Assembly (NCBI GenBank): GCA_002840645.1
Contig: PHBO01000016.1
Location: 1 to 50,241 of the forward strand
Direction: 5' to 3'
Length of the DNA stretch: 50,241 nt
From: Candidatus Cloacimonetes bacterium HGW-Cloacimonetes-3
GTDB taxonomy: Bacteria > Cloacimonadota > Cloacimonadia > Cloacimonadales > Cloacimonadaceae
Shown in pieces: positions 375 through 47,558 of the stretch (positions are counted from its first letter, which is position 1; the number at the start of each line of letters is the position of its first letter). Both the position numbers and the translations under genes were made by a program. The notes below the pieces were generated by a model, which was given only the letters and a program-made list of their open reading frames with translations, did no database searches and had not been told where the DNA came from.

Positions 375-551
375 GCATGGAGTTCAAAGTGCTTTTCCCA
401 GCATCAAGCTATCTCCAAATCTGAGAGCACTTCGGACTTCATGCGTGCAGCAAGAGACTAATTGTTACCGCCATGTGACCGTTTGAAGTCCGAGCCGGCG
501 TTAAATTTGATATACGCTCAAGCTTCTCCCAGCCGGCTTGAACTCCAAACT
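375..551 (+). repeat. RAYT-flanking structured repeat, copy 1 (177 bp)
   Basis: Two hairpins can be drawn. Stem 1 pairs 375-393 with 426-444 over 19 positions; every departure from Watson-Crick pairing is a G-U wobble. Stem 2 pairs about 481-499 with 532-550, again with only G-U exceptions. The outer ends GGAGTTCAA and TTGAACTCC are also inverted repeats of each other. It ends 16 bp from the stop codon of the transposase gene. Confidence 0.85.
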
Positions 552-567
552 GAACAGGTTGCACACC

Positions 568-1134
568 TTAATCCAGCAAATACTTCTCAATATGCTTAAG
601 TGCTGTTATCTTCTCCATAATCTCCCGGTAGCTGGAAGCATCCTTGAAATAAGCCCGGCAGATGCTTTCATCACACAATTGCGTATGGCGCAGCCCAATC
701 CACTCCTGATAATTTGACCATTCCCAATCTTCTGGTGATTTCACGAAGCCCGCGGACACAGGATTCTGGTGAATATACGCAGACAAGCGCAGCAGATAGA
801 TGTCTTTATCCACGTGTTTATGCTGAGTTTTCCCGGCAAAGATACTGCCTTTCCCTCCGTACTTCCCATTGTAATACATCGAATAGCTGAACCATATCTT
901 GCTCATGCTCTGGTAAATAGGGTATTCACCATTTTGCCGGATTAAGAAATGATAATGGTTTGGCATCAGACAGAAAGCGACCATCGAGAAGCTGGTGCTA
1001 TCCAGATACTTCGTCATAAGACTAAGGCATTTTCGGTAGTCTTCGGCATCCCGAAAAAGTAATAAGCTTTGCGAAGCGTGATTGTAGATATGATAATAGC
1101 AGGCTGAGATGAATTCCACGGCTTTAACTCTCAT
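568..1134 (-). CDS. REP-associated tyrosine transposase (RAYT), IS200-like Y1/HUH family
   Basis: This 188-residue protein has the single-domain Y1 transposase layout. The N-terminal YYHIYNHASQSLLLFRD block is followed by MPNHYHFLI with the HUH metal ligands (H60-Y-H62), and later by AYIHQNPVSAGF, where Y120 is the likely nucleophile. A WSNYQEW block follows, as in RAYT proteins. HUH transposases cut and rejoin single-stranded DNA at hairpin feet through a 5'-phosphotyrosine link; RAYTs act on REP hairpins. The ATG is preceded by AAAGGA. The gene lies between two 177-bp hairpin repeats, which supports RAYT over a classical IS200/IS605 insertion. It is intact, without frameshift. No TnpB or accessory gene is next to it. 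Confidence 0.88.
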   Translation of the reverse strand: MRVKAVEFISACYYHIYNHASQSLLLFRDAEDYRKCLSLMTKYLDSTSFSMVAFCLMPNHYHFLIRQNGEYPIYQSMSKIWFSYSMYYNGKYGGKGSIFAGKTQHKHVDKDIYLLRLSAYIHQNPVSAGFVKSPEDWEWSNYQEWIGLRHTQLCDESICRAYFKDASSYREIMEKITALKHIEKYLLD

Positions 1135-1182
1135 CCATTATTCCTTTATCTTTTATAACTATAAGTTGTTAGCACCAACTAA

Positions 1183-1359
1183 GCATGGAGTTCAAAGCAC
1201 TTATCCATATTCAGCACTTACTCCGTATTTGACAGTGCTTCGGACTTCATGCGTGCAGCAAGTAACTAATTATTCGCAGCAAGTGACCGTTTGAAGTCCG
1301 AGCCGGCGCTAAGATATTGGTAAGCTCTAGCTTCTCACAGCTGGCTTGAACTCCAAACT
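1183..1359 (+). repeat. RAYT-flanking structured repeat, copy 2 (177 bp)
   Basis: Same length, ends and orientation as the copy at 375-551. Stem 1 pairs 1183-1201 with 1234-1252. The inner part of the stem is GCACT/AGTGC here but GTGCT/AGCAC in copy 1, so both arms changed together and pairing is kept. The second hairpin and the shared segment CAAGT(A)ACTAATT in the linker are also retained. It lies 48 bp upstream of the transposase start. Confidence 0.85.
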
Positions 1360-1375
1360 AAAACAATCTGCCTTT

Positions 1376-47405: not shown

Positions 47406-47558
47406 TCTGGAGTCGATTTGGCTTCTCCAAACAACAATTCTATCTCCCAATTACACTATCCAAATGGACTACAGCGACACACAGCCGATGCCTGTAGTCC
47501 ATATCGCCGCAAAGATCGCATTAAAAGCACAACCAGTGTAGGCGATATCGACTCCAGA
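47406..47558. repeat. Structured element with nested inverted repeats
   Basis: Outer 12-bp perfect inverted ends TCTGGAGTCGAT (47406) and ATCGACTCCAGA (47547). Inside are an 11-bp perfect stem ATGGACTACAG/CTGTAGTCCAT (47464-47474, 47492-47502) and ATATCGCC/GGCGATAT (about 47502 and 47541). Just outside, ATTTGCATG is tandemly duplicated. There is no coding frame. Confidence 0.65.

Follow-up and report, generated by a model that had tools for sequence, protein, structure and literature searches.

Covarying inverted-doublet repeats with a cruciform fold flank a RAYT transposase and are dispersed through Cloacimonadota genomes

Two diverged repeats stand on either side of a transposase gene in Candidatus Cloacimonetes bacterium HGW-Cloacimonetes-3, and the question that the locus raises is whether they are elements belonging to that enzyme, and what in them is conserved. 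The known cases of RAYT transposases with their REP sequences cluster around GTAG tags. The window, by which we mean the whole 50,241-nucleotide stretch analysed, opens at a contig end, inside an rRNA operon. An earlier note had described a RAYT flanked by two 177-bp repeats, equal in length yet diverged. The repeats do lie around the Y1_Tnp ORF as direct copies of the same length with 79-81% identity, and the arms of their first stems read as that note gave them. Each copy is an inverted doublet of the form GGAGTTCA-N47-GGACTTCA-N42-TGAAGTCC-N47-TGAACTCC. The features are as follows (CM, covariance model).

377..553, + strand: element copy 1, core 379-546; inverted doublet with a four-way-junction fold; CM matches 378-442 (+) and 483-547 (-)
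379..441, + strand: copy 1 unit A, GGAGTTCA, 47-nt hairpin, GGACTTCA; stem 387-393 (AAGTGCT) with 426-432 (AGCACTT)
433..492, + strand: copy 1 middle arm, in which CGGACTTCA (433-441) pairs with TGAAGTCCG (484-492)
484..546, - strand: copy 1 unit B, inverted; stem 493-499 (AGCCGGC) with 532-538 (GCCGGCT)
568..1134, - strand: RAYT/TnpA_REP-like Y1 HUH transposase, 188 aa; HUH motif MPNHYH, catalytic YIHQNP
1185..1361, + strand: element copy 2, core 1187-1354, same direction as copy 1; CM matches 1186-1250 (+) and 1291-1355 (-)
1187..1249, + strand: copy 2 unit A; stem 1195-1201 (AAGCACT) with 1234-1240 (AGTGCTT)
1292..1354, - strand: copy 2 unit B; stem 1301-1307 with 1340-1346 (AGCCGGC/GCTGGCT on the + strand, one G-T pair)
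47408..47556, no strand assigned: third doublet, degenerate and far from any RAYT; CM matches 47492-47556 (-), 33.6 bits, and 47408-47474 (+), 16.7 bits

Folded as single-stranded DNA, the window copies form four helices (outer tag stem, hairpin 1, middle tag stem and hairpin 2) that meet in a four-way junction with 0 unpaired bases. The folding z-scores are -3.2 for copy 1 and -2.9 for copy 2, and none of 200 shuffles folds as well. By themselves the two copies offer two compensatory pairs in the first stem, which is weak evidence. The earlier note had proposed a covariance-model search for further copies, and this search returned many dispersed copies with compensatory changes: at E<=0.01 the one-unit model finds 39 units in the genome of origin and, within its family, 71, 58, 45, 42 and 33 in relatives, with 0 in all 24 genomes from other families of the order. 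A DNA search of the genome of origin recovers partial element copies, and the pattern GGAGTTCA-N38..58-GGACTTCA matches 25 units there, compared to 0 for the pattern read backwards. Among 84,980 genomes scanned for the exact pattern there are 70 loci, 69 of them in Cloacimonadota; the remaining one, in Nesterenkonia, is probably a chance match, and it was left out of the covariance model yet is counted among the 162 units described below. Presence is patchy at the species level. An inverted exact partner accompanies 105 of the 162 exact units, and the covariance model detects a degenerate partner for most of the remaining units in the genome of origin. The elements are mostly extragenic, since 56 of 67 copies are overlapped by an ORF over half their length or less, in DNA that is 85% ORF. 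One doublet (L072:1545-1736) lies wholly within a 614-codon open frame at a contig end.

The dispersed units reveal what is kept. In all 162 distinct units the distance from tag to tag is 45-49 nt, where the pattern permitted 38-58, and the unit length is 61-65 nt, so that a single unit already exceeds the 20-40 bp of typical REPs, as had been claimed for the whole repeats. Watson-Crick pairs fill 91% of the cells of the 7-bp hairpin stem, compared to 51% when the 3' arms are re-dealt among units, with a maximum of 58% over 2000 shuffles. With the register set one base away from the tag, Watson-Crick pairing reaches 86-96% at each of seven successive positions and only 15% at the eighth. After dereplication to 64 units the covariation score comes to 0.891, compared to 0.229 when shuffled; 0 of 500 shuffles reach the observed value, slid-register controls score at most 0.19, and up to four Watson-Crick types occur at one pair. 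The claim that structure is under selection, beyond duplication alone, is thus well borne out. At the level of the doublet, 42 of 55 distinct sequences have all four helices in their minimum free energy fold, compared to 0 of 55 with the unit interiors scrambled. The two stems of a doublet are never alike (at least 6 of 7 positions matching in 0 of 55, with 4.8 expected, P=0.0045), which suggests selection for the junction or against a palindrome, as identical stems would make the doublet one long palindrome. The letters of the element change freely, while its ability to fold into a cross is kept.

The protein between the window copies is an intact ORF that scores 34.6 bits against PF01797 (Y1_Tnp, cut-off 23). 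It also matches NF047646 (REP_Tyr_transpos) at E=1e-14 and 54.7 bits, which is under the NCBIfam equivalog cut-off of 80. MPNH[YF]H and YIHxNP are kept in this RAYT and its relatives in an alignment of 35 relatives. The genome of origin has six Y1_Tnp genes; the RAYT paralogues among them are 62% and 40% identical to the window gene, so there are no near-identical transposase copies. Elements stand on both sides of the window RAYT (C26) and of its nearest paralogue (C12, frameshifted, 62% identical), and the third relative (C28, 40% identical) is flanked by a repeat of another sequence, CTGTTTAACTC...AAGTCAAACAG. At the frameshifted gene (G000 C12:14850-15270; L059, L139) one flanking doublet is degraded and the other intact.

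Of 125 genomes of the phylum, 47 have RAYT relatives. Among the 35 RAYT loci that could be tested, about 28 have a direct repeat common to their upstream and downstream sides, at a level clearly exceeding the inverted and cross-locus controls. The repeats contain hairpins of diverse kinds, and a complete two-tag doublet could be made out by eye in part of the loci only. RAYT similarity tracks flank-repeat similarity (Mantel r 0.32, P=0.0005). The most enriched of all tetramers in the flank repeats are GACT (z 8.5) and GAGT (z 8.1), and the two again rank first and second in 18 loci independent of the origin of the idea (GAGT z 7.2, GACT z 6.0). The RAYT ORFs show no such enrichment, and the flank repeats show none for the classical tag GTAG. 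The sequence of the element varies by RAYT lineage, and the GAGT/GACT tags and general plan are constant. At 28 other Y1_Tnp loci the covariance model matches the flanks in isolated instances only. Four plasmid-borne RAYT relatives outside the phylum (28-34% identity), a small sample considered as carriers of the same architecture, lack direct flanking repeats. Within the family, 7 of 12 element-rich genomes are without a RAYT relative at E<=1e-20. Other Y1 genes were considered as partners in RAYT-poor genomes and rejected, as none is flanked on both sides. No Y1_Tnp gene was detected in G010 (99% complete, with 19 well-kept units) or in G035 (45 units). These genomes count against a RAYT-cognate element, as does the NF047646 score of the window RAYT; loss of the RAYT is known elsewhere.

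Taken together, the repeats are likely REPIN/BIME-like non-autonomous elements, cognate to the RAYT that they flank (a REPtron). That the adjacent RAYT processes them on exposed single strands is the likeliest reading because of the analogy with TnpA_REP of E. coli and Stenotrophomonas, which binds single-stranded DNA hairpins through a GTAG guide and cleaves at C|T (PMC8266576), and with REPINs, whose mobile unit is an inverted doublet (PMC3116915). The half-element would be the 63-nt unit, in which a 7-bp hairpin, its loop about 33 nt long, stands between the tags GGAGTTCA and GGACTTCA; two such units in inverted order, with different stems, would make up the replicating unit. Where this becomes single-stranded, for example on the lagging strand, two tag pairs and two hairpins could close into the four-way junction. 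The RAYT, in which the HUH and Tyr motifs are intact, may recognise a unit through hairpin plus tag, then cleave and rejoin it as single-stranded DNA and so copy the doublet into new extragenic sites. The elements are probably mobile, and we infer that the RAYT mobilises them; recognition, cleavage and copying, the single-stranded substrate and the site of cleavage are all predicted. On this best reading the element, with its GAGT/GACT tag and larger cruciform fold, is cognate to a Cloacimonadota RAYT lineage.

One subfamily bears on the mode of insertion. Its near-identical copies, which lie in several genomes and in unlike surroundings, agree for a further 15-16 bp past the core, up to ends of CCC/GGG. 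Matching AT-rich 5-mers (TTTAA, CTTAT, ATAAA, TTCAA, ATTAA) border these doublets, and this looks like a 5-bp target-site duplication. In ten CCC...GGG elements, chosen after the pattern had been noticed (loci L124, L103, L111, L125, L080, L089, L101 and L088), the flanking 5-mers are perfect in 6 of 10, compared to 1.2 expected (P=0.0003), and 45 of 50 flanking letters match, compared to 33.7 expected. An offset scan of 85 elements puts the same cell first (7 and 4 matches), where shuffles reach 4 in 2 of 200. Target-site duplications are not expected from the Y1 mechanism of IS200/IS605, and this keeps alive the rival reading that the doublets are MITEs of a DDE transposon with a 5-bp target-site duplication, the RAYTs merely lying between copies or having been captured. 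The parent transposon would have the ends CCCAATTGAGGC.../...CAGG and be expected in G005-like genomes. The matching 5-mers, with the concordant offset scan, and the absence of Y1 genes from some element-rich genomes speak for such MITEs. However, the duplications were found in the one subfamily only and at neither window copy, the element loci examined contain no transposon with these ends, and the single spaced pair inspected has no transposase. Nor would a DDE MITE explain why RAYTs of many lineages each have matching flank structures of their own, and we consider this origin improbable. A further and more ambitious proposal is that of a distinct superfamily of Cloacimonadota RAYT systems whose GAGT/GACT doublets work as four-way junctions in DNA, with the stems kept different to avoid a long palindrome and with 5-bp target-site-duplicating insertion, a route not known for Y1 enzymes; it is conceivable, but doubtful. 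In a search for empty orthologous sites, no two of the genomes compared were sufficiently close, and the HU-gene neighbourhood of G000 and G003 is not orthologous upstream. At G000 C28 a primase-like gene lies between widely spaced facing units; units as the ends of an autonomous transposon were rejected here, as these facing units belong to separate doublets.

Stable folds and an extragenic position would also suit transcribed structured RNAs, or 3' UTR stabilisers or terminators with a function as RNA, to which the RAYT link would be secondary. The pairing itself argues against this. According to the earlier note, the differences between copies keep pairing, partly through G-U wobbles. The Watson-Crick swaps stand; the wobbles are minor, with 37 G-T among 1134 stem cells, of which 1035 are Watson-Crick. 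As G-T is scarce and the changes are mostly Watson-Crick swaps, selection at the level of DNA fits better than RNA. On the GGAG-to-GGAC strand G-T exceeds A-C (37 vs 13; 23 vs 12 after dereplication), which hints, if mildly, at units acting each on a strand of their own. A doublet would then have its two units on opposite strands, which counts against an RNA. The elements show no clear orientation bias relative to genes and have no Rfam match, and together with their patchy presence between species this makes a role as RNA very unlikely. Simple local duplication with chance palindromes, for which the window with its only two good copies could speak, is refuted by covarying dispersed copies in many genomes and by fold z-scores near -3.

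The nearest kinds of element are REPINs/BIMEs with their RAYTs and TnpAY1 subclass 2.6. With the REPINs/BIMEs of Pseudomonas and E. coli (PMC3116915, PMC8266576) the present repeats have in common dispersed extragenic palindromes, an inverted doublet as unit, compensatory hairpin changes, a Y1 transposase of their own that they flank, and a repeat family for each RAYT. They differ in their 63-nt units, with two spaced tags in each, where classical REPs have 20-40 bp. GAGT/GACT takes the place of the GTAG/GTRG or CGTC tag at the foot of the hairpin, and the always different stems of a doublet give a four-way junction, not one long hairpin. TnpAY1 subclass 2.6 (RAYT group 5), mostly from Bacteroidetes, shares YIH[QN]NP, a length of about 180 aa, flanking structures without GT[AG]G and copies elsewhere in the genome (PMC6006769). 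The HUH residue is Y/F here (NH[YF]H) and [LIV] there. The flanking structures of that subclass are described only as atypical and weaker (PMC6006769); the comparison is thus by description and not by sequence, and the two repeat classes may overlap. The GTAG/CGTC REP superfamilies and TIRtrons (PMC3733652) likewise include tagged palindromes, dimers and repeat-flanked RAYT-like genes. Those superfamilies carry other tags than GAGT/GACT, and TIRtrons have long terminal inverted repeats where the RAYT flanks here are direct doublet copies. IS200/IS605 elements also combine a Y1 HUH transposase with flanking hairpins. Here a genome has few transposase genes, which diverge from one another and are far outnumbered by element copies, and NP, not Q, follows the catalytic Tyr. 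In the literature compared, which covers subclass 2.6 by description only, we found no GAGT/GACT tag, fixed-length two-tag unit, four-way junction or Cloacimonadota case. The earlier suggestion of a likely new REP/BIME class for this phylum is supported and can be refined to an inverted doublet forming a four-way junction.

Within one phylum, a single RAYT lineage thus has many mutually different repeat families of similar plan: tag, stem, tag and inverted partner. Such lineage-specific repeats are natural enzyme-repeat pairs for studying recognition. The elements also offer a DNA structure that is rich in covariation and has a defined junction, and the subfamily with target-site duplications allows a direct test of how an element inserts.

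Two loci give a view of larger arrangements. Between L064:392-864 and L089:6289-6762, 474 bp around an element are 95.6% identical in two genomes and the rest of the 8-kb loci is unmatched; the shared stretch is possibly a larger mobile unit or the result of horizontal transfer. At L236:3600-5300 (G003; the same site as L132) three element copies are each followed by the start of one and the same RAYT gene, two of the three starts being short truncated 5' fragments, and the outer tag occurs in 17-bp tandem repeats (TAAGTGTGGAGTAAATT). This arrangement suggests that element and RAYT amplify together and then decay.
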